34,436 nt of DNA from IMG/VR virus record IMGVR_UViG_3300035034_001636, positions 1-34,436 of that record; one strand, 5' to 3'. Position numbers and translations under genes: made by a program. This DNA comes from a virus. This document shows, one piece after another, positions 6,669 through 32,195 of the stretch. How positions within the stretch are numbered: the first letter of the stretch is position 1; the number at the start of each line of letters is the position of its first letter. The notes beneath the pieces are model-generated. The model worked only from the letters and a program-made list of their open reading frames with translations. It ran no database searches and was not told where the DNA came from.

Positions 6669-7346
6669 TTAAACTCTCATTTTATCAACAACTTTGTCAA
6701 CTTGCTTTTGCTCAGGCGAACCATCTGCATGGCCTTGACCTGCTCCACCAGCATAACTGTTAGAGTCAGCATTTGACTGTACTAAAGTTGAGTATTCTTC
6801 TTCTAAACCTTTTACCTGATCTTCAAATGATGTTTCAGACTCTAGATTTACTCTGTCTAACCATTTGCTTTGGACTTTCTCATCCATTTTAGAAAGAAGT
6901 TCAGACTTAGAAAATACACTCTTTGCTTGAGCACGTTTTGTGTCAGTAACATTACCATTTTTGATTGTTTCCAATTCAGTGCGAAGAGTCTTATTGTCTT
7001 TCAACATTTTTTTAGCCCAAGCTGGTGCTTCTGCTAACTCTTCATCATCTTCGTCTTCATCAGTTTCGTCTGCTGTTGGTCTACCGCTTAACTTTTCCAA
7101 CTCCTTTTGAACTCTCAGCCTATCGGCTTCTGCTCTTCTTAATTTGTCATCGTCTTTAGCAATCTGCGTAAAGTCAACTAGGTCGTTGTAATCATTAATG
7201 ATAACATCAATTGCTGAGTCATCTGCATCATCTTCTGGTCTTGTAGAAAGTTTGTCCATGAACAAGTCCAACCGTTCTTTTGATAGTGTGCTTTTAGGAA
7301 AAATAACCTTAAAGCGCTCTATCATTTTTACTTTTTTTACTGCCAT
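6669..7346 (-). CDS. Scaffolding protein (probable)
   Basis: Start chosen at the ATG at 7346 (MAVKKVKMIERFKVIF); a longer frame begins at a GTG at 7376, which overlaps a good -7 box, so the shorter 225-residue form is preferred. The N-terminal 60 residues look folded. The rest is a highly charged helical protein with an acidic run (DETDEDEDDEELAE), a coiled-coil stretch and a Gly/Ser-rich tail. That profile and its place upstream of decoration and capsid genes fit a scaffold. It opens the structural operon just after a terminator and promoter. Confidence 0.62.
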   Translation of the reverse strand: MAVKKVKMIERFKVIFPKSTLSKERLDLFMDKLSTRPEDDADDSAIDVIINDYNDLVDFTQIAKDDDKLRRAEADRLRVQKELEKLSGRPTADETDEDEDDEELAEAPAWAKKMLKDNKTLRTELETIKNGNVTDTKRAQAKSVFSKSELLSKMDEKVQSKWLDRVNLESETSFEDQVKGLEEEYSTLVQSNADSNSYAGGAGQGHADGSPEQKQVDKVVDKMRV

Positions 7347-7923: not shown

Positions 7924-8109
7924 TTATATTTTTGAATTTATGACTATTACTGAAGTATTGCCTAGATGAAAATCTACTTCCATATCTTGGTCTTCAATAT
8001 TAAATAAGGTTTCTCTTCCTTTTGAACAGTTCATTCTCTCTTTATTAACCATTAGGTCGAAGTCAAAATCGAATAATGTTCTTCTTAATTCTTTAATTGT
8101 AGCTTTCAT
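7924..8109 (-). CDS. Small hypothetical protein
   Basis: 61 residues starting MKATIKELRRTLFDFDFD, with a C-terminus that looks like two short beta strands (MEVDFHLGNTSVIVINSKI). No family recognised. It is the first gene after a copy of the conserved promoter element at 8138-8178 and is followed after 11 bases by the thioredoxin-like gene, so the two probably form one short operon. Confidence 0.6.
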   Translation of the reverse strand: MKATIKELRRTLFDFDFDLMVNKERMNCSKGRETLFNIEDQDMEVDFHLGNTSVIVINSKI

Positions 8110-11456: not shown

Positions 11457-12017
11457 TTAGTCTCTATTGTTGCTAGGTAATTGATACATTGTAACTTCAG
11501 CAGCTTTCTGTTTGTTGTCTTTCTCATAACCACCTAAGTGCTTCATAAGTTTTTCAATTGCATCTAGCTTATTCATTAGGTTGACTTTCTTTATTTCACC
11601 ATACGGTATCTTTTCATTGCCAATATTAGCGTTGAGAGTTCTAACATCTATAGAGCTGATCATTTGTCTAACTGATTTTGGCATATCGTGTATACTCTTA
11701 AGAGATCCATCTTCTTTGTACATTTCAGCTGGATCGAAGCGTACCATGTTTGCAAGATCTACAACTAACTCATCGATAGTTATTCTATTTCTTTCGATGC
11801 TTTCTTGTTTTAATCTCTCTATCTCATCTTTGATTATTTGCCTATTTGATAACAAATAAGACTTTCTGTACATCACATGTCTTTGCATACCACTTGCGTC
11901 ATACACCCTTTTGTAAGCTTCTGAATAGCTGTGGTATTGCATGTATGCGTGACAAAAAGCTCTTTCTCTACTAGTCAATATTTCATCACCATTCTTGTCT
12001 ATTTTTCTCTTTCCCAT
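11457..12017 (-). CDS. terS: Terminase small subunit
   Basis: 186 residues with the Terminase_2 pattern: LTSRERAFCHAYMQYHSYSEAY near the N-terminus (a DNA-binding helical region), then a helical oligomerisation part and a C-terminal tail (EVTMYQLPSNN). The phrase FDPAEMYKEDGSLKSIHDMP is characteristic of this family. The protein recognises phage DNA and presents it to TerL. It lies two small steps upstream of terL. Confidence 0.88.
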   Translation of the reverse strand: MGKRKIDKNGDEILTSRERAFCHAYMQYHSYSEAYKRVYDASGMQRHVMYRKSYLLSNRQIIKDEIERLKQESIERNRITIDELVVDLANMVRFDPAEMYKEDGSLKSIHDMPKSVRQMISSIDVRTLNANIGNEKIPYGEIKKVNLMNKLDAIEKLMKHLGGYEKDNKQKAAEVTMYQLPSNNRD

Positions 12018-12019
12018 AT

Positions 12020-12304
12020 CTATTTTAGTTTTATGTGTCCTCGTCCTATGAGGTGCAAAATCCTTGCTTTTACTATCCTTCTTTCATTAGCCGAAAGCAT
12101 AGATTTTTTCTCTTCTATTAGCTTAAATTCATCAATTAATTCTCTATACTCGTTCTCTACTTGATCGATTTTATTTTTTATCTTCTCATTTTTCTTTCTG
12201 TAGTTCACATAAATTTTGAAAATAAAAGGTAGTTTATCAAGTATGAAATTCTTAATCTTTCTCATCAAAAATATAACAAATATTTTGATCTCTAGTTTCT
12301 TCAT
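12020..12304 (-). CDS. Small basic, coiled-coil protein upstream of terS
   Basis: 94 residues from ATG 12304, or 81 from ATG 12265 (MRKIKNFILDKLPF). The first 14 residues are hydrophobic and encoded by very AT-rich DNA, so the shorter form is credible. Residues 35-75 form a charged heptad-like helix (KKNEKIKNKIDQVENEYREL), followed by a basic tail with RIVKARILHLIGRGH. No family recognised. It ends two bases before terS and borders non-coding repeat region A. Confidence 0.5.
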   Translation of the reverse strand: MKKLEIKIFVIFLMRKIKNFILDKLPFIFKIYVNYRKKNEKIKNKIDQVENEYRELIDEFKLIEEKKSMLSANERRIVKARILHLIGRGHIKLK

Positions 12305-13053
12305 AAATAAAATTTATTTTTTGTAAATCTACTAATTTTTTCTGGAAACAATAAGAGAAACAAAGGAAACAATGATTGTTTCTCGGTAACTGTTTGGCTA
12401 TCAATTCTATAGGGTCGCCCGAGAAACAATAAAAAAAGCGCATTGTTTCTCATTTAACTGCTTGATTTTCAATAAACTAAAATGTTAATTTATGTTAAAA
12501 AGCATCCAGGGAAACAATAAAAAGGCAGCCTAACCCCCAGCGGCTCCTGGGCAATATACGCGTTTTAGGTAGTATATGGTAATTATCTATATTTTATAAT
12601 ATCAAAGGTTTTATACTTTTATTGTTTCCTTTGTTTCCAGAGCACCTAGGATCACTACCACCGTGACTTCGTTGGAGAAACAATCATTGTTTCTCTTTGT
12701 TTCCTTTGTTTCTCTGCTAAAAATGAGAAACCTCTGCATTACGTTGGTTATCAGTCAACTGCAGAGGTTTCGCAAGTAGCATCATGCAAACTAAAACAAG
12801 CTACCTGCCTAATTGCGAAAGTGTCGCAACATTAGATTTGCGAACTCTCTCATTTCAAAAAAGTAGTTGCGAGACTTTCGCATATGTACTTTTTGCCTGA
12901 AAAAATGTCGCATTTATTCTCATTTTTACTTATTTCTCTTAAAATTGTCTTTTTTAGAGTTAAAAACTCTTGTGCTTTTTGGTCTTATTTTTACACAAAA
13001 TAAGCATATTTTTTACACCTATTTTAGATCTCATTTATAGAGTTAAAAAATAG
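12305..13053. repeat. Non-coding region A: iterons, palindromes and hairpins (origin- or operator-like)
   Basis: No convincing gene. It contains many copies of GAAACAAT/ATTGTTTC. These include arms GAGAAACAAT and ATTGTTTCTC paired around a 10-base spacer near 12421-12452 and around one base near 12675-12695, plus tandem TTTGTTTCC repeats. An AT-rich core (TAATTATCTATATTTTATA, 12580-12598) leads into ATCAAAGG. A 12-bp stem GAAACCTCTGCA / TGCAGAGGTTTC spans 12727-12771. TTGCGA..TCGCAA (12813-12829) and TGCGA-GACTT-TCGCA (12868-12882) are small hairpins. The same elements in the same order occur at 31.8-32.2 kb. The tail (12900-13053) is AT-rich with a CTTATTTT/AAAATAAG stem at 12984-13004. Confidence 0.8.
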
Positions 13054-16628: not shown

Positions 16629-17429
16629 TCATATCTCTACTTCTTTACCTGTTACAATCCTGTAGATCTCTCTAGTAAGCTTCACGTCATAGACGCCATT
16701 GTGCAGCATTACATCTTCTACATACAATCCTAATTCTTCAGCTACTGTCTTAAGTTTGAAGTTTGGCATTGACACTCTTCTTTCAATGAGGTATTCACAT
16801 GCTAAAACCATAACATCTAATGAGTCTCCCCAAAACCAAGAACCAAAATATGTATCTCCGTTTTGTTCAAACCATCTTCTTAAGAAAACATCATCAAACT
16901 TTCTGTTGTTAAACCCTACTAGATACATTTTATCTTTTCTATCGTATCTATCACAGTATCTCTCTAATATTGATACAAACTCAATATGAGCATCTTTCAT
17001 ATCTTGATATACAAGTATTTCATCTTCTAAAACATTACCTACTAGAAGAGCCTTAGGTTCAATTATTGCTTTTGGGTGTGGTCTTGTTTTAATGTCAAAT
17101 TCTTCTACTATTTCACCATTGAATTCTACAACACCAGCTATTTGGTGTATGCTGTTTTTACGTTCGTCAGTTCCAGTAGTTTCTAGATCATAAAATATTT
17201 TTATGATGTCGTCTCTTGTTTTGAATTTCATAGTTTGTATTTTTTCGTGTAGTTGTGGAAACATTTCCATGTATTTATTCATGTATCTTATTACATGGAT
17301 TGTGAATTTATGTTGAGGTACATCAATGAACTTTTCTTTGAGTCTAACAACAGCTACTCTATAGCCATTTGAGTGATCATAGAGTGTGTTGTTTTCTCTC
17401 GTGTATTTTCCTGACTCAATTAGTTTCAT
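16629..17429 (-). CDS. DnaQ-like 3'-5' exonuclease (DEDDh)
   Basis: 266 residues. The exonuclease begins near residue 67. Exo I is FYDLETTGTDE with D81 and E83. Exo II is VGFNNRKFDDVFL with D179 or D180. Exo III is HNGVYDVKL with H243 and D248, the H-x4-D spacing of the DEDDh class. That makes it a relative of DNA polymerase III epsilon and RNase T. The first 66 residues are an extra domain I do not recognise (RVAVVRLKEKFIDVPQHKF). It overlaps the thymidylate-synthase-like gene by 14 bases, so it belongs to the nucleotide/modification operon and could proofread or degrade host DNA. Confidence 0.85.
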   Translation of the reverse strand: MKLIESGKYTRENNTLYDHSNGYRVAVVRLKEKFIDVPQHKFTIHVIRYMNKYMEMFPQLHEKIQTMKFKTRDDIIKIFYDLETTGTDERKNSIHQIAGVVEFNGEIVEEFDIKTRPHPKAIIEPKALLVGNVLEDEILVYQDMKDAHIEFVSILERYCDRYDRKDKMYLVGFNNRKFDDVFLRRWFEQNGDTYFGSWFWGDSLDVMVLACEYLIERRVSMPNFKLKTVAEELGLYVEDVMLHNGVYDVKLTREIYRIVTGKEVEI

Positions 17430-18087
17430 TCCTGTTTAAAAAGTCATTATACAAGTGCAGATCTGCTGCATAGTGGAAGTATGTACCTGTTTTAAGTTTC
17501 ATCTCTTTTGCTACTAATTTATGCATCTCTGAGAAACAGTATTGATCATTGCAAAAACCAAACCATAGATCATTGGATCTCATCAGAACTGTCATATCTA
17601 GTTTTTCACCACAGTCTGAGACTTCAAAACCTATGTTAAGCGTACATGGTGTATCATGGCGATAGTCTTTCTTTTCTTTACCATCGAAAATGGAAAGCCA
17701 TGCATGTCTAGTCGTAGAGTCGTGTTGTAGCTGAGAAATACATTTTTCAATTTGGTTGTTTCTATTCCACTGCCACCCATAGTTACTGTTGACTATGTTG
17801 TCACCGTTGTGCATTATGTCCCAAATAGGTGCAAACTTTTTTAATTCTTCTACACTTCTATTTTGTGATAAGTACCAATCAAATTCTCTCTTAGCATACT
17901 TGTCATTCCAGTTTCTAAAAGGTGTTTCTATGTGATTGTCTTCTGGTTTCAAAATATAGAAACCTATATTTCTAAGTCTCTTAGTGCCATTTGCTCTTTG
18001 AGTGCCTTCTGAGTTTATCTTATTGTAAAAATAATCAAAGGCATCTTCTGCTGTGTGGAATGTGTTTATGTACGAATGTATGCTCAT
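17416..18087 (-). CDS. Thymidylate synthase superfamily: predicted deoxycytidylate (dCMP) hydroxymethylase
   Basis: 223 residues. SNYGWQW (101-107), DTPCTLNIGF with nucleophile C148, and MRSNDLWFGFCNDQYCF then AADLHLY follow the thymidylate synthase core. From R170 to Y213 it aligns without gaps to E. coli ThyA RSCDVFLGLPFNIASY...GGDTHLY. On that alignment, D181 replaces the Asn (N177) that selects uracil. The same Asn-to-Asp change marks cytosine-specific members such as T4 gp42. H211 and Y213 are kept. It would use methylene-tetrahydrofolate to make 5-hydroxymethyl-dCMP. A dUMP-type enzyme remains possible. It lies beside dUTPase-like, kinase and carbamoyltransferase genes. Confidence 0.8.
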   Translation of the reverse strand: MSIHSYINTFHTAEDAFDYFYNKINSEGTQRANGTKRLRNIGFYILKPEDNHIETPFRNWNDKYAKREFDWYLSQNRSVEELKKFAPIWDIMHNGDNIVNSNYGWQWNRNNQIEKCISQLQHDSTTRHAWLSIFDGKEKKDYRHDTPCTLNIGFEVSDCGEKLDMTVLMRSNDLWFGFCNDQYCFSEMHKLVAKEMKLKTGTYFHYAADLHLYNDFLNRNETN

Positions 18088-18089
18088 AT

Positions 18090-18557
18090 CTAATAACTTC
18101 TTTTTTGTCTGTTTCTGTTCTCTACATTTTTAGCCATGTAGTAGTTGTAAATAGTTTTTGAGTCTAACCCTAAAGACACAGCATAGTTCATAAAGAAATG
18201 TAGTTTGTCTACGAATTCCATTACAAGTTCTTTCTTATCATTTTCAGTGAGATCAGAGAGCTTCATTTGTGAAGCTTTCGGGTGGTCTTTCTTCCATGGC
18301 TTCCAAACAGCATTTCCAATGCCATCATTTATGCCACCTAATGCATCAAACATTTCATGGTCTTCATCGCCTTCTGCGTGTTTGTTCATCAACCAAAAAT
18401 TCTTTATGTCATTAAGTGACATAGTGTCAAAATCGTAGTTGTAAATCTTAGTCTGAGTATCTCTTTGAAGTTCTAAGATGTCACCTAGTGTATCTTTAGA
18501 GTCTTTAAATAGGTCTAGTATTTCTAAACCTGAACAAATGTTGTCTGTGTTTGCCAT
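18090..18557 (-). CDS. Dimeric dUTPase / dCTPase-like all-alpha NTP pyrophosphatase
   Basis: 155 residues, all helical. ILELQRDTQTKI, then HAEGDEDHEMFDALGG with clustered acidic residues, then MEFVDKLHFFMNYAVSLGL (E114, D117) and the end segment YYMAKNVENRNRQ (N144, R148) are the motif set of the dUTPase_2 family, related to MazG and T4 gp56. Such enzymes hydrolyse dUTP and, in T4, dCTP to the monophosphate. Here it would remove canonical dCTP/dUTP and supply monophosphate to the neighbouring hydroxymethylase. It is 2 bases from that gene and 3 from the upstream one. Confidence 0.82.
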   Translation of the reverse strand: MANTDNICSGLEILDLFKDSKDTLGDILELQRDTQTKIYNYDFDTMSLNDIKNFWLMNKHAEGDEDHEMFDALGGINDGIGNAVWKPWKKDHPKASQMKLSDLTENDKKELVMEFVDKLHFFMNYAVSLGLDSKTIYNYYMAKNVENRNRQKRSY

Positions 18558-18560
18558 CTT

Positions 18561-19124
18561 TTATTGTTTTACTATTAATTTTTCTATGTTTACTATGTTT
18601 TGTGCAGTAGAAGCTATCACATGTATTTGTGGCTGCTCACTGTACACTGGATCTATAAAAAACTCTTTTATGAGGTTTATGTCATATAACAATTCGTTTT
18701 TTATGTCAGACGCTCTAAAGAACAGTTTTACAGTGTCTTGAAAATAATGGATGATATTAAGACAACTCGTATTAACTGTATCATCCATGTAGTCTGAAAG
18801 TTTGTCAGCTATTACGACTACACATCTTCTGCTTTTGTCTTTGTTTCTTGAAACTGTTTCAATGATTGATCTAAAATCCATGTCGTTTTTCATCATAGCT
18901 GATACTGTATAAATAGTACCTATTAGATTTGACTGCTCTTCTACATTTGTGAAAGATTTTCTATGTAAGAAACCCTCCATTGATTTTATAGAAATGTCCA
19001 TGTTTGAAAAAGCTTTTCTTTTAGCAAACATGTAGCTGTCTTCTATTTGGTTTATCTGATCAGCTCTGTCTATTCTAAAATAGTAAGAGTCGTCATTGAA
19101 AAGAGGATATTTATATATATTCAT
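18561..19124 (-). CDS. Degenerate thymidylate-synthase-like protein
   Basis: 187 residues. The C-terminal half resembles the thymidylate synthase core: KSRRCVVVIADKL, then NTSCLNIIHYF with C121 in the nucleophile slot, then LFFRASDIKNELLYDINL, which fits the R-S-x-D-x3-G-x3-N pattern with D148 at the Asn177-equivalent position. The Gly is replaced by Glu, and the HLY motif near the end is replaced by IASTAQN, so catalysis as a normal synthase is doubtful. It sits between kinase and dUTPase-like genes. It may be a diverged paralogue of the 17.4-kb gene working as a partner subunit. The fold call is moderate. Confidence 0.5.
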   Translation of the reverse strand: MNIYKYPLFNDDSYYFRIDRADQINQIEDSYMFAKRKAFSNMDISIKSMEGFLHRKSFTNVEEQSNLIGTIYTVSAMMKNDMDFRSIIETVSRNKDKSRRCVVVIADKLSDYMDDTVNTSCLNIIHYFQDTVKLFFRASDIKNELLYDINLIKEFFIDPVYSEQPQIHVIASTAQNIVNIEKLIVKQ

Positions 19125-19126
19125 AA

Positions 19127-19588
19127 CTACATTATTTGAAACAACTGCATGAGTCTTGCCAAGTTGTTTGGATTTACTCTTATTTTATTCATAGAAACAG
19201 CATAAAATATAGCTTCGTACATCTTTCTAGCTGCTAATATTTGATCATATGAAAAAGCTTCATTTCTTTCACTGTCAAAAACGAAGTCTTCTTCTCTGTC
19301 AACGAGTATAAACAAACAGTTTTGACTTTCAAATATCTTTTGAAGTTCTACTGGATTTTTTACTCTGTGCTTTTGGTCTCTAAATAGACTGTATACCATT
19401 TCTGATACAAAGTTTCTATCAGAAATGGTTTTTTTAGGTGTTATATAGTGACTGTGAAAATCAAATTTCTCATCTGGTTTATCAAAGTGAATTATAGGCC
19501 ATCCTAAAGTTTGACTTAGTTTTTCACACAGCTGAGATTTACCTTGCTGATCTGCACCTTCTACTATTATCTTATCTATTTTTATCAT
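19127..19588 (-). CDS. P-loop deoxynucleoside-monophosphate kinase-like protein
   Basis: 153 residues. IIVEGADQQGKSQLCEKL carries the P-loop GADQQGKS at 11-18, and ISDRNFVSEMVYSLF (DR at 57-58) is the substrate/lid signature of thymidylate and deoxynucleoside kinases; LFILVDREEDF follows. It is shorter than typical thymidylate kinase (about 200). In phages with modified bases such kinases act on hydroxymethylated monophosphates (T4 gp1, a different fold) or on hydroxymethyluracil in DNA. The start lies 17 bases inside the end of the carbamoyltransferase gene, so translation is coupled. Confidence 0.75.
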   Translation of the reverse strand: MIKIDKIIVEGADQQGKSQLCEKLSQTLGWPIIHFDKPDEKFDFHSHYITPKKTISDRNFVSEMVYSLFRDQKHRVKNPVELQKIFESQNCLFILVDREEDFVFDSERNEAFSYDQILAARKMYEAIFYAVSMNKIRVNPNNLARLMQLFQIM

Positions 19589-21293
19589 CTAATATCAATA
19601 AATAGGTTTTCTGTTCTACGTCTTTTAGCTTTTGCTTTCTAAAATCAATAACAGCGTCTACACTAGAGCAAACTATGGGGTTGCCGTGAGTATTAAATGA
19701 AGTGTTTATCACACATAGACTGTTCACATTTTCTAGAATGCTAGAAATATTACTCTGTGAACACCTAGAAATAACTTGAGGTCTACCACTAAAGTTAGTA
19801 GTTTTTGGGTATTTATGCATAACGCCTCTGTACTCCATATGCTCAACAGCATCTTCATTAAAATCATCTGTTATTATCATGTATTCGTTTGATCTTATGA
19901 CTCTAGATCTATCTAAATGACTTCTAAATAAATCTATATAATTTTTCTCTAAAAGTACAGGCGCCATAGGCATTACTGTATTTCTACTATTGAGCATGTT
20001 TATATAATCTACATTCTCTTTAGTTGGTAAAGCTAATGTACTTGTGTTACATAAAGCTCTTGGGCCAAATTCTAAATCTCCTTGTATGATATTAACTACC
20101 TTATCTTCGTTGATTAATTGAGCTACTTTAGAGATAAACTCATTAGGTTCAGTAAAATGCATAATTCTAGAGTCTTCTACTTTGTGGTCTAATGATCTCA
20201 CACCGTAGCACAGATCAAAGAACTTAAAATCGCCTATGTATTTTTGGTACATTCCAATTGCTGCACCTTGATCACCAGAAAGAGGCATTACACATATGTC
20301 ACCTTCTATGGTTTTCTTTATTGCATTATTGAGTTTCACATTGTAGAAACAACCGCCAGAGAGAACTATGTTTTTGACATTTAAACTTGATATGAGCTTA
20401 GTCATTATGTTTTCTACACAGTACTGAATGTAGTAACCTATTATGTGTCTTTTGAGATGATTTATTATCTCTTCTGAGCCACTCTGAAGTGTTTTCATAA
20501 CGTTGTCAAACTGTATATTGAATATAGATTCAGCAGTCATTAGAGCTTCTACATCAATGTAGCCTTCGTGTGTTTTCTCCTTCTTCTGTTTAAATATACC
20601 TAGTATTTTCAAATAGTTTTCTATATAAGTGTCAGCTAACTCTTCTATTGTTCTAAGTTGCTGCCTAGAAATATAATCTAGAATGTGAGCTTCATAACCT
20701 AGAAACTTATATTCATCTTGATTTTCTTTCATACCACAGTAAGAACATGCATACTGGTACATCAAACCCATAGAGTTCATGTAGTCATAGTATCTGCTTT
20801 GTAGTTCTAGTTTTCCAGTCTTTGTGTTGTATCTATAGAAAGACATCACCTCTTCGTTGTTACCAAAACCATCTGCTACTAAGAAATGAAAGTCACCTAG
20901 GTTTTTTCTCTCTACTTTTTCTAAGATAAAAGCTAAACTAGAGTAAGCGTGAGCGTCATGATGAGTGAAGTTCTCTGAGAGGTTTACGATTTTCATATCA
21001 TACTTCTTACATAGATTGTTTATGTAAAAATGGTTGAAATACTTATCTGGAAATGAAGATTGATCAAAATTATCAAACCAGTGTGAAATAAATATTCTAG
21101 CTCCGTAAAGCTGAGAGTCGTCTATGTTTTCTATGATCTTATTTATAGAAGACGAAGGAAATGAAGAGTCAGATTTTTTAAGCGTTAGTCTCTCTTCTTC
21201 ATAACCTACTGGCTTGTCTATGCCGTTGAAAAATACAGCACTCGAATTGTGCCCCAATGTAATCATTAAGGCACATTTGTTTTGTTCTTGCAT
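19572..21293 (-). CDS. NodU/CmcH-family carbamoyltransferase
   Basis: 573 residues, full length for the family. GHNSSAVFF (14-22), YEEERLTLKK, HHDAHAYSS (111-119, metal and adenylate site), LSGGCFYNVKLN (311-322), SGDQGAAIG (339-347), EFGPRAL (408-414) and MPMAPVLL (441-448) come in the expected order: Kae1-like domain, then the C-terminal carbamoyl-transfer domain. One departure is CNTST after EFGPRAL, where GNRSI is usual. These enzymes make carbamoyl-adenylate from carbamoyl phosphate and ATP and put the carbamoyl group on a hydroxyl. Next to a hydroxymethylase, the likely acceptor is hydroxymethylated pyrimidine in DNA. Confidence 0.93.
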   Translation of the reverse strand: MQEQNKCALMITLGHNSSAVFFNGIDKPVGYEEERLTLKKSDSSFPSSSINKIIENIDDSQLYGARIFISHWFDNFDQSSFPDKYFNHFYINNLCKKYDMKIVNLSENFTHHDAHAYSSLAFILEKVERKNLGDFHFLVADGFGNNEEVMSFYRYNTKTGKLELQSRYYDYMNSMGLMYQYACSYCGMKENQDEYKFLGYEAHILDYISRQQLRTIEELADTYIENYLKILGIFKQKKEKTHEGYIDVEALMTAESIFNIQFDNVMKTLQSGSEEIINHLKRHIIGYYIQYCVENIMTKLISSLNVKNIVLSGGCFYNVKLNNAIKKTIEGDICVMPLSGDQGAAIGMYQKYIGDFKFFDLCYGVRSLDHKVEDSRIMHFTEPNEFISKVAQLINEDKVVNIIQGDLEFGPRALCNTSTLALPTKENVDYINMLNSRNTVMPMAPVLLEKNYIDLFRSHLDRSRVIRSNEYMIITDDFNEDAVEHMEYRGVMHKYPKTTNFSGRPQVISRCSQSNISSILENVNSLCVINTSFNTHGNPIVCSSVDAVIDFRKQKLKDVEQKTYLLILDDKNR

Positions 21294-22359: not shown

Positions 22360-23747
22360 TAATCGAAATTTTTTGCATACCTATCTAACCTAGCTTTGAC
22401 TGCTTTCATTATACCTTCTTGCTTAGCATCTTTTCTAGCGAGAGCTTTCATCACATCAATGTCCATAGTTTTATTGATAACTAAATGGTGTATGATCACA
22501 GGTTTATCTTGACCCTGTCTGTGCAATCTAGCGTTAAGTTGCATGTATAATTCTAATGACCAATTTAACCCAAACCAAACTATGTCACTTCCACCCTGTT
22601 GCAAGTTTAAACCATGACCACCTGAAGCTGGGTGCATTATGAGAACTTGAATTTCGCCTCTATTCCATTGATCAATGTGCTCTGGTTTTTCAAGTTTTAC
22701 TATATTGTATTTCTTTAATCTTTTTTGAATTCTTTCTAAATCATGCCTGTATGTGTAAGCAATCAATACTGGTTTACCATTTGCTGTTTCTACTATCTCT
22801 TCTAAAGCATCAAGTTTTATATTATGTATTTCATGATAGTCTCTATTTTCATCATACACAGCACCGTTTGCAAACTGTAGTAGTTTATTTGAAAGAGAAG
22901 CAGCATTGAGAGCGCTGACTTCTTTTTCGCTCTCTAGTATCTCAAGTATTTTTTCTTTTTCAAAATCATCATACTTTGCTCTTATAGCTTCTGGAAAATC
23001 AAGTCTTATATAGTTGTCTATTCTTTCAGGTAGATCGAGATAGTCTTTAGCTTTCATGCTCATACAGATGTCTTTTATTTTAGAGTGTATCTGCTCATCA
23101 CTTCCTTTATTTAAGTTATAGTTGAAAACTACTTGACCATTTGATTGCCCTGGAGAAAAGTAGTTTTTTCTGTATTCTGTAATTGTTTTGCCAAGCCTTT
23201 CACCTCTGTCTAATAGAAACATCTGTGACCATAAATCAATTAAACCATTTGGTGCAACAGTTCCTGTTAGTATTACCACTCTTTTAAAAGAAGCTTGTAC
23301 TTTCTTAAGAGCTTTAAACCTTAGGGATTTTGCAGACTTAAAACTACTGCTTTCATCTACTATCAACATATCAAAAGGCAGCATAGAACCGCCAAACTGC
23401 CCACACAGCCACACGATGTTATCTCTACCTATTATGTATATGTCGGCTTTAGCTTTAAGCGCTTCTGTGCGTTTCTTTGGGTTTCCTATTATTTTGCTTA
23501 TTCTTAAATGGTTTAAGTGCTCCCACTTATCTATTTCAGCACTCCATACGCTTTCAGCTACTCTTTTAGGTGCAATCACTAAAACTGTATCTATTTCTAA
23601 ATCTTCATACATCAAATAATTTGCTGCAGTAAGAGATGAAACTGTTTTCCCTAATCCCATATCTAAAAAAAGGCCACAATGAGAATTCTCAACTATGTGT
23701 TTTTTAGAGTGCCTCTGATAGTTATGCATGTTTTTTTCACTTAGCAT
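22359..23747 (-). CDS. SNF2-family DNA helicase / translocase
   Basis: 462 residues. Motif I is LDMGLGKTVSSL (GLGKT 31-35), motif Ia is VIAPKRVAESVW, motif II is IVDESSSFK (DESS 131-134) and motif III is LTGTVAPN (161-167). The second RecA domain has LIAYTYRHDLERIQ, then GHGLNLQQG and motif VI NARLHRQGQ (405-413). This is the compact SNF2 helicase found beside VRR-NUC genes in many phage replication modules. It remodels or translocates on DNA during replication or recombination. It overlaps the gene upstream by 11 bases. Confidence 0.93.
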   Translation of the reverse strand: MLSEKNMHNYQRHSKKHIVENSHCGLFLDMGLGKTVSSLTAANYLMYEDLEIDTVLVIAPKRVAESVWSAEIDKWEHLNHLRISKIIGNPKKRTEALKAKADIYIIGRDNIVWLCGQFGGSMLPFDMLIVDESSSFKSAKSLRFKALKKVQASFKRVVILTGTVAPNGLIDLWSQMFLLDRGERLGKTITEYRKNYFSPGQSNGQVVFNYNLNKGSDEQIHSKIKDICMSMKAKDYLDLPERIDNYIRLDFPEAIRAKYDDFEKEKILEILESEKEVSALNAASLSNKLLQFANGAVYDENRDYHEIHNIKLDALEEIVETANGKPVLIAYTYRHDLERIQKRLKKYNIVKLEKPEHIDQWNRGEIQVLIMHPASGGHGLNLQQGGSDIVWFGLNWSLELYMQLNARLHRQGQDKPVIIHHLVINKTMDIDVMKALARKDAKQEGIMKAVKARLDRYAKNFD

Positions 23748-23925
23748 TTTCTGTATAGTTTTTTAATTCTTGTTCTAGGTACTCTTTCTCATAATCATCA
23801 TGAGAAGTACATAGGTATGAATAATGGTTTGGCCTTTCTATTACACCTAGTACTAAGAGCGGTTTACTCTCTGGATCTAAAATGTGAACTACTAGACTTA
23901 ATATTTTAAATTTATTGTTTTTCAT
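23737..23925 (-). CDS. Small hypothetical protein
   Basis: 62 residues: MKNNKFKILSLVVHILDPES, then PLLVLGVIERPNHYSYLCTS and an acidic helical end. Mixed strands and a helix, no recognised motif. It overlaps VRR-NUC upstream by 14 bases and the helicase downstream by 11, so it is certainly inside the operon. Confidence 0.6.
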   Translation of the reverse strand: MKNNKFKILSLVVHILDPESKPLLVLGVIERPNHYSYLCTSHDDYEKEYLEQELKNYTENAK

Positions 23926-24199
23926 TTACAAGTATGTTTTTTATCTGCAATGAAGTATCTACTATGTAGACTTTAAATCCAAGATCTATGAGTTTTTTAT
24001 GTACATAGAGCTGTATCTTTCTAGGTTTTTGTTTTGTTGTTTTTAATTCAATAAAAAATAGACGACCCCCTGGCAACAAGCAAAGCCTATCTGGTAACCC
24101 TGTAAAGTACGTAGTCAGTAGTTTTAAACACAACCCGCCTATTTTCTCTGTTTCTTCTCTAAGCTTTCGCTCTAATATCTTTTCTGACTCTATTTTCAA
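23912..24199 (-). CDS. VRR-NUC domain nuclease
   Basis: 95 residues, a minimal stand-alone VRR-NUC. TGLPDRLCLLPGGRLFFIEL carries the PD-(D/E)xK core with D37 and E51-x-K53 (IELKT), followed by RKIQLYVHKKLIDLGFKVYI with the conserved Gln. Family members cut structured DNA such as branched or Holliday junctions and are commonly encoded beside the SNF2 helicase, as here. It overlaps its upstream neighbour by 41 bases. Confidence 0.9.
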   Translation of the reverse strand: MKIESEKILERKLREETEKIGGLCLKLLTTYFTGLPDRLCLLPGGRLFFIELKTTKQKPRKIQLYVHKKLIDLGFKVYIVDTSLQIKNILVNEKQ

Positions 24200-24535: not shown

Positions 24536-26923
24536 CTATGTGAGTTTTCTAGAGTAAAATTTCTGTTTTCCGTAATGTTTAAAAGTTCTAGTAGAAGTGT
24601 TGTATTCCCATTCATCTAAACTTTTCATAATTGCATTTATTTCTCTAGTAGCATACCTATTCATTTTGTCTTTCTCTTTCTCTAAACACTCACACCATAT
24701 TTCTGCTATGCACACGTAGTCTCTTTCTTCTGTGCCTTGAGATAACATGTCCGCTGAAAACTCTTGACGCTCTAGTATATCTCTATCATCCCAGTCTTGC
24801 GGTAGTTTTCTTTCTAAGTAGTTTTCTATTATACCTCTTCTCTCATCAATTTGGCTGTGTTTAACTTGCTCGTTCTCTGCTATTTTCTTAGCATCTTCAC
24901 TTAGAATAGTCTCTTCTTTTTTAGCATACATAGTCATTACTTCTGCCCATATTTGATCTATTTCATCGTCTAAATGTTTCCATACATCTTTTGTTGCTCT
25001 ATCAGCATTTACGTCTATTGGTATAAATCTCCTGTTACCACTTGGGTCGTTAAGAAAATCTTTTTCATTTGTAGTTCCAGCAAAAACGCATTGGCGTTTA
25101 AAAGTCTCAGAAGATCTTGCGTAAGCTGGTCTAAATTGATCCTCTTGTTTTGTTATAAAGTGTTTTACCGCTTCAACTTCTGCTTTTCTAAGACCTGCTA
25201 GTTCTGCCATTTCTATGATCCAAGCTCCCTGTATTTGCTCTAGCGCTTCTTTACCTTGAACTGTCATAAATGTATCTGAAAACCATGGACCACCTAATTT
25301 AGAAAAGAAAGTACTTTTGTTTGTACCTTGATCACCGACTAAAGTCAAAACTAAATCGAACTTACACCCAGGTCTGAAAATTCTATTTACTGCACCAAGT
25401 AACCACTTTCTTATTGCTTCTCTTGTGTAAATGTTATCATCAGCACCAAAATAGTCAATAAGTAATGTATCAACTCTTTTCTCATCATCCCACGTTACTT
25501 CATTCAAATAGTCTTTGATTGGATGAAATGACTGTTTCTGTAGCTCAAGTGAAAGAGAGTCGTCTATTTTGAGAGTCCCTGTCACACCATATATGCTTTC
25601 AATGTAGTTTCTAATTCCTGAATAGTCTACATTTTTTATTGGTTCTGGATTTTGTATTCTCCTCCACGGTAAACTTCTAAATACATAATGCTTATTGTCA
25701 AAATCATTCTGCTTAAATGCCTTTTTTAATCTTGCATCATTTGCTAAAATCATATTTATGTTGTTAGCTGTAGATAAGTAGTTGCCTTTACTGTCAACTT
25801 CTAACTCAGTCATCCAATCTATTTCGTCTTGATCACCATCAACATTATTTGACTCTTCAAAATCATAGTCGCCAAAATCATATTTAGAAGAATTTATGTT
25901 TTCATTTGCTATTGTTTTCTTTATTTTTTTATCTGATCTAGCAAGATCTTCCATAGCTTTGTAGCTATTTGGTTTTGTAGAAGTAGGCGCGTCATTGTCT
26001 AAGTGAGAAAACAAATGCAACCTAACTAGATCAAATGAGTTTGAAAGTTTACCTGAACATGGATCTGTACCATGATGAGAGTAAGCAAACTTGTCATCAT
26101 AAACCATTAGACCCCCAGAAGTACTACCTTTTTTATAAGTATATCTATCATCATAAGCAGTAGCGTCGTATTCTTCTTTTAGAAAAGTATCTATGCTTTC
26201 TGAAATTGAATATGTTCTACAGAATATGCCGACTATGCCTTTTTTTAATTCAGGATCTTCTTGCTTATTTGCTGCACCACCTAACTCATCTAGTTTTTTA
26301 GAAGCTGTAGGCCACAGACTTGTATCTTTCCAATCTATGTATGTGTCTAAGACTTCATCTGCGTCAACCCAAGGACCATCTTGATATTTAAAATAGTAGT
26401 CAATGTCTTTTGGATTTGACTGCCAAAACATCAATCTGTTTGTTTCAAACGTAGTGTTATCAAAGAGATCAATTCCCATATCTCCAGCAATCTTTCTAGA
26501 AATAGCAACATATTCATCTGGTGTTACTTCTCTAGATATTGGAATTATGAGTCTGTATCTAGGATTTGCGTCACAATGTTTATGAGTTGAATGTATTATA
26601 GCAGCATTTCCAAACTGTAGAGTGAAGTCATCCCAAAAATCAAGGTGAGCAAAATCTATGTCAAGAGTCATCAGTTGTCTGTGGACTACATTCTTAGGGC
26701 TTCTTCTACCATTTCTTAGATATGCACCTACATAGCCACCGACGTCTTTTATCTTTCCTTGCTCTGCTTTACTCGCTGATATGAATTCTTTGTATGTCTC
26801 ATTTGTTTTATTTTCTTCTGAAAGTCTTTGCACTAACTGTGAGAAAGTCATTTTTTTATTCTTCCAAACTTTCGAGTTAGCACTCATTCCAACAGCTATG
26901 TCAATCTTACCGTCGTATTTCAT
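24536..26923 (-). CDS. Primase-helicase with VirE-type superfamily 3 ATPase
   Basis: 795 residues. The N-terminal part resembles a primase of the archaeo-eukaryotic type, with QLMTLDIDFAHLDFW (D88, D90) and a later His in IIHSTHKHC. A linker with HHGTDPCSGKLSNSFDLVRL follows. The C-terminal VirE-type ATPase has Walker A LVGDQGTNKSTFF (GDQGTNKS 530-537), Walker B AWIIEMAELAGL and the sensor region FAGTTNEKDFLNDPSGNRRF. It would open the origin and prime synthesis. P4-type relatives also recognise origin iterons, which is relevant to the repeat regions A and B. Adjacent to the DNA polymerase gene. Confidence 0.88.
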   Translation of the reverse strand: MKYDGKIDIAVGMSANSKVWKNKKMTFSQLVQRLSEENKTNETYKEFISASKAEQGKIKDVGGYVGAYLRNGRRSPKNVVHRQLMTLDIDFAHLDFWDDFTLQFGNAAIIHSTHKHCDANPRYRLIIPISREVTPDEYVAISRKIAGDMGIDLFDNTTFETNRLMFWQSNPKDIDYYFKYQDGPWVDADEVLDTYIDWKDTSLWPTASKKLDELGGAANKQEDPELKKGIVGIFCRTYSISESIDTFLKEEYDATAYDDRYTYKKGSTSGGLMVYDDKFAYSHHGTDPCSGKLSNSFDLVRLHLFSHLDNDAPTSTKPNSYKAMEDLARSDKKIKKTIANENINSSKYDFGDYDFEESNNVDGDQDEIDWMTELEVDSKGNYLSTANNINMILANDARLKKAFKQNDFDNKHYVFRSLPWRRIQNPEPIKNVDYSGIRNYIESIYGVTGTLKIDDSLSLELQKQSFHPIKDYLNEVTWDDEKRVDTLLIDYFGADDNIYTREAIRKWLLGAVNRIFRPGCKFDLVLTLVGDQGTNKSTFFSKLGGPWFSDTFMTVQGKEALEQIQGAWIIEMAELAGLRKAEVEAVKHFITKQEDQFRPAYARSSETFKRQCVFAGTTNEKDFLNDPSGNRRFIPIDVNADRATKDVWKHLDDEIDQIWAEVMTMYAKKEETILSEDAKKIAENEQVKHSQIDERRGIIENYLERKLPQDWDDRDILERQEFSADMLSQGTEERDYVCIAEIWCECLEKEKDKMNRYATREINAIMKSLDEWEYNTSTRTFKHYGKQKFYSRKLT

Positions 26924-28885: not shown

Positions 28886-28904
28886 GTGATGCTTGCTTGT
28901 TTTG

Positions 28905-28991
28905 TGAAAAAGAAAGGACTCGAACCTCTAACCTTAGTATCATGTTTTAATGATTGCAATCCCACGCTCTAGCCAATTGAGCTACTTTTCC
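28905..28991 (-). tRNA. tRNA-like gene with an unusual middle (possible Cys, GCA)
   Basis: Reading the minus strand, the acceptor arms GGAAAAG / CTTTTTC, the D arm GCTC-AATTGGCTA-GAGC and the T arm AGAGG-TTCGAGT-CCTTT are all well formed, with discriminator A and no encoded CCA. The 35 bases between D and T arms are not normal. TTGCAAT looks like a GCA (Cys) anticodon loop, but its stem TGGGA/CATTA pairs poorly, and an extra ATCAT-TAAAAC-ATGAT hairpin follows. Total length is 87. It is either a diverged, long-variable-arm tRNA or a decaying one. Confidence 0.65.
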
Positions 28992-29049: not shown

Positions 29050-29598
29050 TTATAGCAAATCATCATCATCGCCAAAGTCAGACTCTGCAGTCGCTCTGGT
29101 TCCGCCTAGTGGTTCACCGTCTTCTAGTTTTTGAATATTATTCAAGCCTACAGCTACGCCTTTGTTTCCAGAAACGTTGTAAGCATAAAAATTTAAAGAA
29201 GCTCTACCATAACAACCAGAATAGATCTCATCTTGATCAATGATAGCTTGTACACTTTCATCTACAAGACCTGGTTGTCTAGCACTATTTGCGTTAACAA
29301 AGTAACAATCAGCATAAGCTTCATCGTCTTCTCTGTCTTCATCACCATCTCTCAATGGGTTTTTAAAGTTACTTGGGGTTTTACCTCCAAATTTCTTTTC
29401 TTTTCCTTCTTCTAAAGCTTCTTGAATTGCTTCTTGAATTGCTTTAATGGTTTTTTTGTCTGACTTAGGAATGATGATAGAAGCACTATATTTTGCTTCG
29501 GCGTTTTCATCAATTGCTCTAGGTTCAAAAACGTTTAAATAACTAAATCTTACTTTACCGGTAATGACTTTAGTCTTTGATTTTGTTTGTTTTGCCAT
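29050..29598 (-). CDS. DUF2815-family single-stranded DNA-binding protein
   Basis: 182 residues. KTKVITGKVRFSYLNVFEPR, then KYSASIIIPKSDKKTIKAI and a C-terminal OB-like part (GCYGRASLNFYAYNVSGNKG) match DUF2815, an SSB-like family of phages. The acidic tail FGDDDDLL is the usual protein-protein contact tail of phage SSBs. A Glu/Asp-rich insert follows PLRDGDEDREDDE. It is the first gene after promoter copy 5 and belongs with DUF2800, polymerase and primase genes, a set often found together. Confidence 0.88.
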   Translation of the reverse strand: MAKQTKSKTKVITGKVRFSYLNVFEPRAIDENAEAKYSASIIIPKSDKKTIKAIQEAIQEALEEGKEKKFGGKTPSNFKNPLRDGDEDREDDEAYADCYFVNANSARQPGLVDESVQAIIDQDEIYSGCYGRASLNFYAYNVSGNKGVAVGLNNIQKLEDGEPLGGTRATAESDFGDDDDLL

Positions 29599-29632
29599 AG
29601 TAATGGATTTTTAATTATATTTATATTGACTG

Positions 29633-29675
29633 CTAATATACTAATTTAATTCTAACTATAAAAATATTTTTTGTA
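29633..29675 (-). promoter_or_regulatory. Conserved phage promoter element, copy 5
   Basis: Minus-strand TATATTAG (29633-29640) lies about 35 bases upstream of the SSB-like ATG, preceded by AAAAAATATTTTTATAGTT. Same geometry as the other copies. Confidence 0.55.
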
Positions 29676-29698
29676 AATAATTAAAAAATATTTATTGG

Positions 29699-30937
29699 TT
29701 ATATGAGATCATCTTGATCTTCTTCACCAAAATCGTTTTGCACACAAAAATCATCTTCTATGCTGCTTTCTTTATATTCTGGTCTTTTATCAGACTCATG
29801 CACAAGTGTAGGTTTGCCTAGGGGTTTTTCTACAAAGTTTGAAAGTAAAGCATTGAATTTAGGTTTTCCTAAGACTTTTTCAATAGCTGTTATTCCTAAA
29901 AGAGCAGGTTTAGATAGATAGTCATCTTTCTTAATTCTTTTCTTTTTAAGTTCTTTCTCTACTGCTTCTTTGTCTTTCCAAGCTCTATTGCTTCTACCAG
30001 CTACAAGTTTGTGCTCAGGCCAAGATTTACCTTTTATAGCTTCGCTTGTTATATGATCACCGACTGATTTTATCCAACTGAGTATTTTAGGAAACATCTT
30101 ATAGGCTTCTATGAGTTCTTGGTCTGAAAGTGTTTTTATTTCTTCTTTCACATCTGAAAAATCATCTTTAGCTAAAGACATTGCTTCTTGTGCAAGTTTT
30201 GGGCATTTTGGTTTGACTTTACAGAATTTACACCAATCACCTGAGCAAAGTTCACCTTCACCTTTGACAGCCATTTCTGCTTTTGGTTTAACTTCTTCCT
30301 CTGCCCACTTCTTTAAATCATATGCAGAGATGTCCCATGTTGAAATTGAGTCTAGTCTAGGTTGCACAATTGTCAATCTAACAGTTTCTATGTTATACAT
30401 CAGTTCTGCGTCAATGAGCGCTCCTAAACCATAAAGCTTAAGTTGTGGATTTTCTTCTGCAGATACTCTAACACCTTGACCATGTTTGTAGTCTATTACT
30501 TCTAATACTCCGTCTGCTATTATTATATCATCACAAGTTCCAAAACCATTTTCAACGTATGATGAAAAATCAACTTTCTTTTCAATAAAAAGTTCAGCAT
30601 CAGGTGTTCTTCTTTTAGCTTCTGTGAATTGCTCTATGACGTAGTCTACGTGTTTCTGCACGTGTTCTTCCATGTCTTTAGAGTAGAACTCATTTTTCTT
30701 AAGAGGTTCTACTGTCTTGTCATATGCTTCTTTTGTTAGAAGTTTTAATTCTAACATCAAGTTAAGTTCTGCAAACTCATGAGCCAATGTTCCTTCTCTA
30801 GCATACTTAGAGCTAGTGTTTTTTATACCTTCTTCTAAAAGTGGACTAGGTGTACAGTTCATCCACCTAGATGCTCCAGAAGCTGACAACAGCGCATGTT
30901 TTCTTGCGCTGTGATCAATTTTTATAGCTTCTGACAT
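29699..30937 (-). CDS. DUF2800 family PD-(D/E)XK nuclease (Cas4/RecB-like)
   Basis: 412 residues. ALLSASGASRWMNCTPSPLL at the start and YAREGTLAHEFAELNL give the conserved His; DGVLEVIDYKHGQG gives the acidic/Lys active-site pair. ENPQLKLYGLGAL follows, and a Cys set (CSGDWCKFCKVKPKC) near residue 240 may hold an iron-sulphur cluster. This is the pattern of DUF2800, a Cas4/RecB-type exonuclease of phage recombination modules. The C-terminus is acidic (NDFGEEDQDDLI), like SSB tails. It is one base from the upstream gene. Confidence 0.9.
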   Translation of the reverse strand: MSEAIKIDHSARKHALLSASGASRWMNCTPSPLLEEGIKNTSSKYAREGTLAHEFAELNLMLELKLLTKEAYDKTVEPLKKNEFYSKDMEEHVQKHVDYVIEQFTEAKRRTPDAELFIEKKVDFSSYVENGFGTCDDIIIADGVLEVIDYKHGQGVRVSAEENPQLKLYGLGALIDAELMYNIETVRLTIVQPRLDSISTWDISAYDLKKWAEEEVKPKAEMAVKGEGELCSGDWCKFCKVKPKCPKLAQEAMSLAKDDFSDVKEEIKTLSDQELIEAYKMFPKILSWIKSVGDHITSEAIKGKSWPEHKLVAGRSNRAWKDKEAVEKELKKKRIKKDDYLSKPALLGITAIEKVLGKPKFNALLSNFVEKPLGKPTLVHESDKRPEYKESSIEDDFCVQNDFGEEDQDDLI

Positions 30938-30938
30938 A

Positions 30939-31319
30939 CTACAGATCTAATAAGAATTTGTTAAACTCTTCGTAATATTTAGGGTCTAACTTAGTAAGAT
31001 TAGGTGCTTTTAGTTCTTTCAACTTAGCTTTCACATCATCTCTGTGATCTTTTACTTTTGTTGAAAGGTTAGCTCTTACTTCCTCTAAAGTCAATGCTTC
31101 GCTGTCAGCTTCTTCTTTAGGTTCAGCTTTAGGTTCAGCTTTAGGTTCAGCTTTTGCTTCTTCTTTAGGTTCAGCTTTTAACTTTGTTTTTCTTGCTTTA
31201 GCTGGTTTTTCATCTTCAGACAGTTGTGGTAGATTGCTCAAAGAAGTAAGCAGTTCTATGACTTTCGCCATATTTTCCTTGTCTTGTGTTTCAACATTCA
31301 ATTTGATTTCTAAATTCAT
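30939..31319 (-). CDS. Lys/Glu/Ala/Pro-rich protein with a repeat linker
   Basis: 126 residues in three parts. An N-terminal helix (MNLEIKLNVETQDKENMAKV). A linker with repeats of AEPK and EEAK at about residues 51-73. A C-terminal helical domain LTLEEVRANLSTKVKDHRDD then NLTKLDPKYYEEFNKFL, which resembles a small domain at the end of several phage ssDNA-binding or recombination proteins. Its start overlaps the regulator stop by one base. Partner function in replication/recombination is inferred from position. Confidence 0.6.
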   Translation of the reverse strand: MNLEIKLNVETQDKENMAKVIELLTSLSNLPQLSEDEKPAKARKTKLKAEPKEEAKAEPKAEPKAEPKEEADSEALTLEEVRANLSTKVKDHRDDVKAKLKELKAPNLTKLDPKYYEEFNKFLLDL

Positions 31320-31723
31320 TATTTATTGTATTTGGTTATTAATTTATTCAATTCACTGAGGTACTCTTTGAGCGAAATAGTTCTTTTAGAAAGAACTGAC
31401 TCATGGAAAATAGAATTCTTATGATATACTTTAGTTTCCCAAGTAGAGGTATTTAACTCTGCTCTAAAGTCACCATACTCAAAAGTCATCATTGTGTCAT
31501 CTGACTTTAGTTTCCATTTTCCACCTTCAAAAAGTTCGTTGATTGTAATTCCTGTCATTTGAGAAAGACGACTGAGCTGGTTAGTATCTAAAAAAGCTTC
31601 ACCTTTTATAATTCTATCCAACGCAAGTTTTGCGTATTTATTATTTGGAAATAACTCTACAGCTACTTCTTTTACTTCTAAATTATTTCTATCTATAATA
31701 GATTTAAGATCTAGTGTTTTCAT
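31319..31723 (-). CDS. XRE-type helix-turn-helix regulator candidate
   Basis: 134 residues from ATG 31723 (MKTLDLKSIIDRNNLEVKEV). A longer GTG frame runs 66 codons into non-coding repeat region B, gives a Phe/Cys-rich implausible sequence and is rejected. Residues 1-65 look like a lambda-repressor-type fold: KEVAVELFPNNKYAKLAL, then DRIIKGEAFLDTNQLSRLSQ and MTGITINELFEG. The rest is strand-rich. It sits immediately downstream of region B, whose paired GAGAAACAAT/ATTGTTTCTC arms are the right style for operators. Confidence 0.6.
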   Translation of the reverse strand: MKTLDLKSIIDRNNLEVKEVAVELFPNNKYAKLALDRIIKGEAFLDTNQLSRLSQMTGITINELFEGGKWKLKSDDTMMTFEYGDFRAELNTSTWETKVYHKNSIFHESVLSKRTISLKEYLSELNKLITKYNK

Positions 31724-31741
31724 CTTATAAACTTTGTTTTT

Positions 31742-31785
31742 ACAAAAGTGAAAAACATTTTGAAATATAAAAAATATTTTATGAA
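31742..31785 (-). promoter_or_regulatory. Conserved promoter-like element, copy 6
   Basis: The upstream block CATAAAATATTTTTTA is identical to that in copies 1-3; the -7 region CACTTTTG is only a partial match to TAnnTTTG. It lies directly upstream of the XRE-type gene. Confidence 0.4.
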
Positions 31786-31811
31786 AAAAATTAAAAAAAT
31801 TTAATATAAAC

Positions 31812-32195
31812 AGAGAAACAATAGAAAATATGTATTGTTTCTCATTCAACATGTTACATTTCAAACAGTTGCAGCTCAAAAAGTATGCCGGGAAACAAAG
31901 GAAACAATAAATCCAGGACACCCTATAGCGCGTTTATACGTTTCTGGTAGTAATTATCTATATTTTATACTATCAAAGGTTTTAGATATTTATTGTTTCC
32001 TTTGTTTCCAGAGCATGTTAGAGTAGTCACGTACTACTACAGAGAGAGAAACAATCATTGTTTCTCTTTGTTTCCTTTGTTTCCTAAAAGCTACTTTTTA
32101 TGTTTTTAGGGTTGCAGAACTCTCTCATTGCGAGACTTTCGCATGTTTTATTTCTGCAGAACTCTCTCATTGCGAGACTTTCGCAAAACATTTTA
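31812..32195. repeat. Non-coding region B: second copy of the iteron/palindrome/hairpin array
   Basis: No gene. The order of elements matches region A: GAGAAACAAT..ATTGTTTCTC hairpin (31813-31844); GGGAAACAAAGGAAACAAT; the AT-rich core TAATTATCTATATTTTATA then CTATCAAAGGTTTTA; TTTATTGTTTCC then TTTGTTTCCAGAGCA; a nearly identical block of about 35 bases with both palindrome arms (32047-32082); then TGCGA-GACTT-TCGCA hairpins, here twice. It lies between the XRE-type regulator and an unknown early gene, about 19 kb from region A. Confidence 0.8.
32113..32185. repeat. Perfect 31-base direct repeat with hairpins inside region B
   Basis: Two identical 31-base units (32113-32143 and 32155-32185) begin TGCAGAACTCTCTCATT and end in the hairpin TGCGA-GACTT-TCGCA. 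Period is 42 bases. Region A carries one diverged copy in which AACTCTCTCATT and the hairpin are separated by extra bases. Confidence 0.9.

Follow-up and report, generated by a model that had tools for sequence, protein, structure and literature searches.

Paired intergenic repeat arrays as candidate VapE-read replication origins in a clade of phages

Two intergenic arrays of short repeated sites stand at the heads of the early and late operons of a phage genome and bracket a 19-kb block. Why does one genome carry two such similar elements at these places, and which protein reads them? We compared the two arrays with each other and with their counterparts in related phages, and weighed a role as replication origins against other functions.

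Two homologous non-coding arrays in one genome

The window, that is, the whole stretch of DNA that was analysed, corresponds to an IMG/VR virus record 34,436 bases in length; the minus strand carries nearly all its recognised genes. Array A (12344-12712) is located upstream of the late operon, which starts with the gene at 12020-12304 and the terminase small subunit (TerS) gene (11457-12017, minus strand), followed by TerL, portal and head proteins. Array B (31813-32084) is located upstream of the replication (early) operon. The first gene of this operon encodes a 133-aa protein with a Cro/CI-type HTH fold (31319-31720, minus strand), and the operon also encodes a DUF2800 nuclease, an ssDNA-binding protein (Enc34-type SSB), an A-family polymerase (PolA), the helicase-primase VapE (24536-26923, minus strand), a VRR-NUC-like protein and an SNF2-like helicase. 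One array is ~5 kb upstream and the other ~12 kb downstream of VapE. Both are intergenic, and the only ORFs that overlap them are small and unconvincing. A GTG-start ORF (31319-31921) extends into array B, but its conserved ATG is at 31720 and array B is therefore non-coding. The arrays had been predicted to be non-coding from the start.

Three further features of the window were noted. A cluster of thymidylate-synthase-like, dUTPase/MazG-like, nucleotide-kinase-like and Nol-like carbamoyltransferase genes (17416-21293) may give rise to a modified DNA base. A tRNA-like gene with an unreadable anticodon (28904-28991) sits between the polymerase and SSB genes, and a similar sequence is found at the same place in Croceibacter phage P2559Y (26702-26772). 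Leader- or promoter-like repeats of ~35-130 bp, 78-91% alike, occur at 8100, 14735, 16539, 21864, 29654, 31761 and 32904, mostly ahead of genes.

The two arrays share ordered modules far above chance. GAAACAAT occurs 16 times in the window against 3.4 expected, a count reached in 0 of 100 shuffles, and 15 of the 16 copies fall within the arrays (nine in A, six in B). Likewise, TTTGTTTCC occurs seven times against 0.6 expected, with six of the seven copies within A or B. Alignment of A with B gave 85% over 139 columns (12579-12712 versus 31950-32083, E ~1e-31). Further matching modules lie beyond these columns and the spacers between modules have diverged. The site counts and the alignment thus bear out the original prediction of homologous arrays with one module order and diverged spacers.

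In array A, a promoter-proximal cluster of four AAACAA sites (GGAAACAATAAGAGAAACAAAGGAAACAATGATTGTTTCTC, 12344-12384) adjoins the late operon and is followed by an inverted pair, GAGAAACAAT...ATTGTTTCTC (12421-12451). A single site, GGAAACAAT (12510-12518, plus strand), forms the right arm of a 104-bp core between inverted sites (12518-12621), and two tandem 9-bp sites, GGAAACAAAGGAAACAAT (12621-12638, minus strand), form its left arm. The outlying cluster (12675-12712) consists of the palindrome GAGAAACAATCATTGTTTCTC and two tandem sites. Array B has the promoter-proximal inverted pair GAGAAACAAT...ATTGTTTCTC (31813-31843), tandem GGAAACAAAGGAAACAAT as right arm (31891-31908, plus strand), an 85-bp core (31908-31992), tandem GGAAACAAAGGAAACAAT as left arm (31992-32009, minus strand), and an outlying palindrome with two tandem sites (32046-32084). 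The near-identical block, put at about 35 bases beforehand, was measured as 34 nt on the minus strand at 12580-12613 (where the plus strand reads TAATTATCTATATTTTATAATATCAAAGGTTTTA) and 31951-31984. In array A it is contained in the 45 nt of the core adjoining the left arm, which are 84% AT. The expectation of an AT-rich core held for the left half only: the whole cores are 65-71% AT versus 67% for the genome and their right halves 51-55%, so that melting would need to start in the left half.

Each array is bordered on its outer side by a second repeat family (12.81-12.88 kb and 32.13-32.19 kb). It comprises two TGCGA-N5-TCGCA palindromes beside array A (at 12814 and 12868; 12814-12882) and two beside array B (at 32129 and 32171; 32129-32185), the latter a 42-bp-spaced direct repeat that includes GAACTCTCTCATTGCGAGACTTTCGCA. 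The hairpins described earlier are present, but they are the only listed module that is not conserved: none was found at the arrays of any relative read. They therefore lie outside the conserved element, and copy A, first delimited as 12349-12905, is reduced to 12344-12712. The palindromes are possibly the operators of another regulator. GC skew, which had been suggested as a check, showed no switch at array A or B; this counts against origin function but is uninformative here, since co-directional genes mask a switch.

The array pair in related phages

A DNA-level search of phage records found no match, since the site sequences diverge, but relatives found through their proteins do carry array pairs. 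VapE relatives are present in 1079 phage records. A profile of the HTH protein matched 16 viral contigs, which were read whole, and a VapE profile gave 80 loci, from which 22 further contigs were read. Two mutually homologous non-coding arrays were found in each of 16 phages including the window, which share a related replication cassette and VapE proteins 50-72% identical; some of the contigs are fragments and some near-duplicates, so that independent lineages are fewer than contigs. In each phage one array is upstream of the replication operon and the other upstream of the terminase operon. Eight of the 16 were found by AAACAA density, which gave exactly two arrays each, before the HTH/replication operon and before TerS, in G002, G005, G008, G009, G010, G011, the window and P2559Y. 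Seven more (G019, G025, G027, G028, G034, G040 and TCUEAP1) had both arrays at the same two places in a geometry scan that allowed any six-base word and presupposed no sequence; in some contigs the two arrays come up under complementary words. The last, Bacteroides phage BF486P2, was found by self-BLAST. By the strictest count, ten real contigs had arrays at two loci versus 0 of 165 dinucleotide-shuffled contigs. Under the strict scan several VapE contigs had a single array and G022, G023, G026, G033, G036 and G037 had no convincing one; variant arrays upstream of the HTH gene were seen by eye in G022, G023 and G033.

Named phages illustrate the pair. P2559Y, whose VapE is 66% identical to that of the window, has one array before the replication operon (23622-23952) and one before TerS (42838 across the record start to base 240); their alignment spans 158 columns at 80%, and their site is TAAACAAT where the window has GAAACAAT. 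The arrays of BF486P2 (6772-6857 and 30384-30471) are 84% alike, and those of Elizabethkingia phage TCUEAP1 (24843-25160 and 229-383) have TTTGAGACATTTGAGACA in common; both pairs are at the same two places, with sites quite unlike those of the window. Dense TGCCATTTTGGCA / TGTCAATATGGCA repeats occupy 29560-29870 of BF486P2 (L059), directly upstream of its late array.

The array pair is kept even where structural genes are unrelated. Terminase, portal and head queries from the window had no matches in the first contig set, whereas late-gene queries of P2559Y, TCUEAP1 and BF type did match, which indicates late modules of unrelated types. That 16 phages with VapE 50-72% identical and structural genes partly unrelated have this pair in matching positions indicates that the duplication is old. 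Together with the joint change of sites within a genome described below, this agrees with the earlier claim of selection on sites as opposed to a recent duplication.

Other candidates for comparison were set aside. IMGVR_UViG_3300012031_000039 (G001) is 99.9% identical to the window and thus the same phage, and adds no conservation evidence. Distant TerS relatives (L013-L034) had no comparable array; this TerS family is common to unrelated phages and hence the wrong handle for an array search. No comparable non-coding pair was found in Firmicutes phages with a VapE cassette and no HTH relative (2638A, phiFL4A, phiCDKH02). Dulem virus 37 lies outside the comparison, its terminase upstream region being beyond the stretch read.

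Common geometry of the arrays

The arrays follow a common design, in which two head-to-tail sites ~9 bp apart are followed by an AT-rich core and the same sites inverted, with an outlying palindrome. Read in the direction of transcription, an array opens with tandem sites and the palindrome AAACAATSATTGTTT. A variable stretch of 50-60 nt leads to two tandem sites, after which come the core, the inverted sites and more sites towards the promoter. When 20 arrays of 12 phages were measured, the spacing of same-orientation neighbours was 8-10 bp in 87 of 99 cases, convergent (palindrome) pairs were spaced 9 bp in 24 cases, and the core between inverted site pairs was 83-106 bp long. Across all relatives the core length is 83-112 bp. 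Its 45 nt beside the left sites are its most conserved part and have a mean AT content of 88%, and the rest of the core 73%.

The Bacteroidetes promoter box has the consensus TAnnTTTG. This box was found on neither strand in any of the 20 array cores, a weak absence because ~2 would be expected by chance, and is present downstream of the core in most arrays. Groups of sites lie 0-60 bp upstream of probable promoters, and this is clearest for the late operon. A TTGATTTKCAA-like motif recurs near the promoter-proximal array end in TCUEAP1 (L060, both arrays) and in many other relatives, for example L062, L063, L064 and L073.

Concerted change of sites within genomes

The site sequence varies among phages (GAAACAAT, TAAACAAT, TAAACCAT, TGAGACA) yet agrees between the two arrays of one phage. 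In 13 genomes, the base before AAACAA (G or T) in one array correlates with that in the other array of the same genome (r = 0.90; permutation p = 0.0003, which includes the effect of phylogenetic relatedness). The first 45 nt of the core have a similarity of 0.84-0.98 between the two arrays of one genome and a mean similarity of 0.69-0.79 to the same array in other phages. P2559Y, G008 and G010, which are closely related, are an exception in that they resemble one another more in some of these comparisons. The simplest cause of this matching would be one trans-acting protein that reads both arrays, maybe with occasional exchange between them.

Co-variation of the sites with VapE

There are two conserved DNA-binding candidates, the HTH protein and VapE. 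VapE matched the VapE-like_dom family (E = 9e-84), and its ATPase and C-terminal region gave a profile match over 427 positions (E = 1e-92) to PDB 7PDS, which we take to be the SaPI5 PriRep structure. In the window the proposed site-binding segment of VapE is the C-terminal winged helix YATREINAIMKSL (residues ~757-769). Among 28 phages with AAACAA sites, residues of this helix are nearly invariant (Y 28/28, T 27/28, R 27/28, N 28/28), and the HTH recognition segment has a mean identity of 47%. The VapE helix is altered in phages with AAACCA sites (SRELNTIV), TGAGACA sites (TRDFTNMM) and BF-type sites (SRGIAEIM), and the lone CACACAA phage has an altered VapE wing. In contrast, the HTH segment of BF486P2 is 53% identical to those of the AAACAA phages despite its different sites, and is no further from them than they are among themselves. 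Site changes thus appear to track the VapE C-terminal winged helix rather than the HTH protein encoded beside array B, a co-variation that comprises four site changes in a protein conserved overall.

The HTH protein had been our first hypothesis for the AAACAA reader and was abandoned, as its recognition helix does not follow the site changes. Apart from its Cro/CI-type N-terminal fold it has few recognisable relatives: PDB sequence search and Foldseek gave weak matches, none with E <= 0.001, and a Pfam search gave no significant match. It is kept in array-bearing phages, and one weak match was obtained in other phage records. A scan of GTDB genomes with its profile found no relative and so provided no host or prophage evidence.

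The C-terminal domain of SaPI Rep helicases recognises the iteron origin, and that of Cch2 binds its own origin specifically (PMC7581432). These precedents, the homology of VapE to 7PDS and the co-variation favour a helicase-read origin over an operator, and we judge it probable that a single iteron-type replication origin read by VapE is present twice, as A and B.

Origins or operators

Control of early and late transcription is the main rival to the origin reading. The arrays would then be operators with no origin function, and a regulator, most simply the 133-aa HTH protein, would switch between early and late transcription. Every array is upstream of an operon, which also counts against the origin model, with sites 0-60 bp upstream of likely promoters; inverted site pairs are typical of Cro/CI-like regulators, and the Cro/CI-like HTH protein is nearly confined to array-bearing phages. 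However, the HTH recognition segment varies widely while AAACAA is constant, and the segment of BF486P2 resembles those of AAACAA phages although its sites differ. Four phages have an additional gene, probably with a promoter of its own, between the array and the HTH gene. A promoter requires neither inverted pairs at a fixed 83-106 bp nor an AT-rich block between them, and the lack of TAnnTTTG in the cores points weakly the same way. We therefore regard operators alone as rather unlikely.

A composite element is less likely still. In this case origin function would be combined with autoregulation, and VapE or the HTH protein at promoter-proximal sites would couple initiation to early or late expression. 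In iteron plasmids, direct repeats serve initiation and inverted repeats autoregulation. Tandem and palindromic sites are both present here, some of them against promoters, and there are two conserved DNA-binding proteins. The sites may also control transcription, by themselves or in addition to acting as an origin, particularly in the promoter-proximal late-operon clusters.

A role in packaging, partition or site-specific recombination is very improbable: one array adjoins TerS and the two are direct repeats around the 19-kb block, but the second is not near any terminase gene, integrase, resolvase and ParA families are absent from 11 contigs (PF00589 and PF00239, tyrosine and serine recombinases, 0/11, with control genomes positive), and every phage has the bracketed genes in one and the same order, with neither deletions nor inversions apparent.

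Relation to known origins and a twin-origin model

The proposed origins most resemble those of SaPI. Two iteron sets flank an AT-rich region in SaPI origins, as Ubeda is said to have reported in 2012, and these origins sit directly downstream of the helicase gene. Here too the site sets are symmetric around an AT-rich region, except for the one-sided single site of array A, and a VapE/D5-type helicase with a C-terminal DNA-binding domain is present, but neither array adjoins VapE. As in the SaPI and SCCmec Cch2 iteron origins, a self-loading helicase would read short repeats through its C-terminal domain (PMC7581432), VapE being homologous to 7PDS. These phages differ from both: each genome has two elements, one ahead of the early and one ahead of the late operon, the polymerase is the phage's own, and the site sequence is another. 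The A-family polymerase and SSB in one operon are reminiscent of the SCCmec CCPol-MP primase.

Two origins in one phage have a precedent in SPP1, and the present case would be a SaPI-type origin present twice. SPP1 oriL and oriR are ~13 kb apart, share direct repeats and an AT-rich DUE, and one occupies a long intergenic region; the concatemer switch is proposed to be triggered by fork stalling where gp38 is bound to oriR (PMC6316719). The likeness lies in two elements with common repeats and an AT-rich region in one phage genome. SPP1 differs in using gp38 with the loader gp39 and the DnaB-type gp40, where the helicase here is VapE-type, and in having oriL inside gene 38, where both elements here are intergenic. 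The clade is analogous to SPP1 and not a member of its type.

Known plasmid iterons are 17-22 bp long. The arrays resemble iteron plasmid origins with Rep autoregulation in having tandem and inverted versions of one site near the early operon, but the unit is 9 bp and no plasmid Rep family was found among the proteins scanned. Phage phi29 p4 exemplifies the early/late switch operators of lytic phages, and such operators also lie between early and late operons; here the arrays are far apart, and each has inverted site pairs on either side of an AT-rich core.

In the twin-origin model, each array would be an iteron origin with 9-bp site pairs inverted around an 85-104 bp core and an outlying palindrome. 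VapE would bind the sites through its C-terminal winged helix, assemble on both sides of the core, melt its AT-rich half and then load itself, after which the phage A-family polymerase and ssDNA-binding protein would copy the genome. One origin would precede the early (replication) operon and the other the late (structural) operon. One may act late, for instance as a fork barrier that starts concatemers, as proposed for SPP1 oriR. The original prediction had tied a non-coding function to replication: the modules recur as a conserved pair in relatives and neither region is coding, and from these sequence comparisons we infer VapE binding, core melting and initiation at the arrays.

Implications

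We found no description of the origins of VapE-cassette phages in the searchable literature. As a tentative extension, a large Bacteroidetes-type clade may carry two near-identical intergenic iteron origins, read by a self-loading VapE, at the heads of its early and late operons and matched by co-evolution of the helicase DNA-binding domain, the late one perhaps serving as a fork barrier or second-stage origin at which replication changes over to concatemers for packaging. If this is true, genome copying in a whole phage group begins at two built-in places. The duplicated, sequence-matched origin at fixed places would allow a direct test of why a phage keeps two, and its sites have a predicted reader in which the specificity residues are open to test. 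The arrays would also provide short, testable DNA modules for Bacteroidetes replicons.
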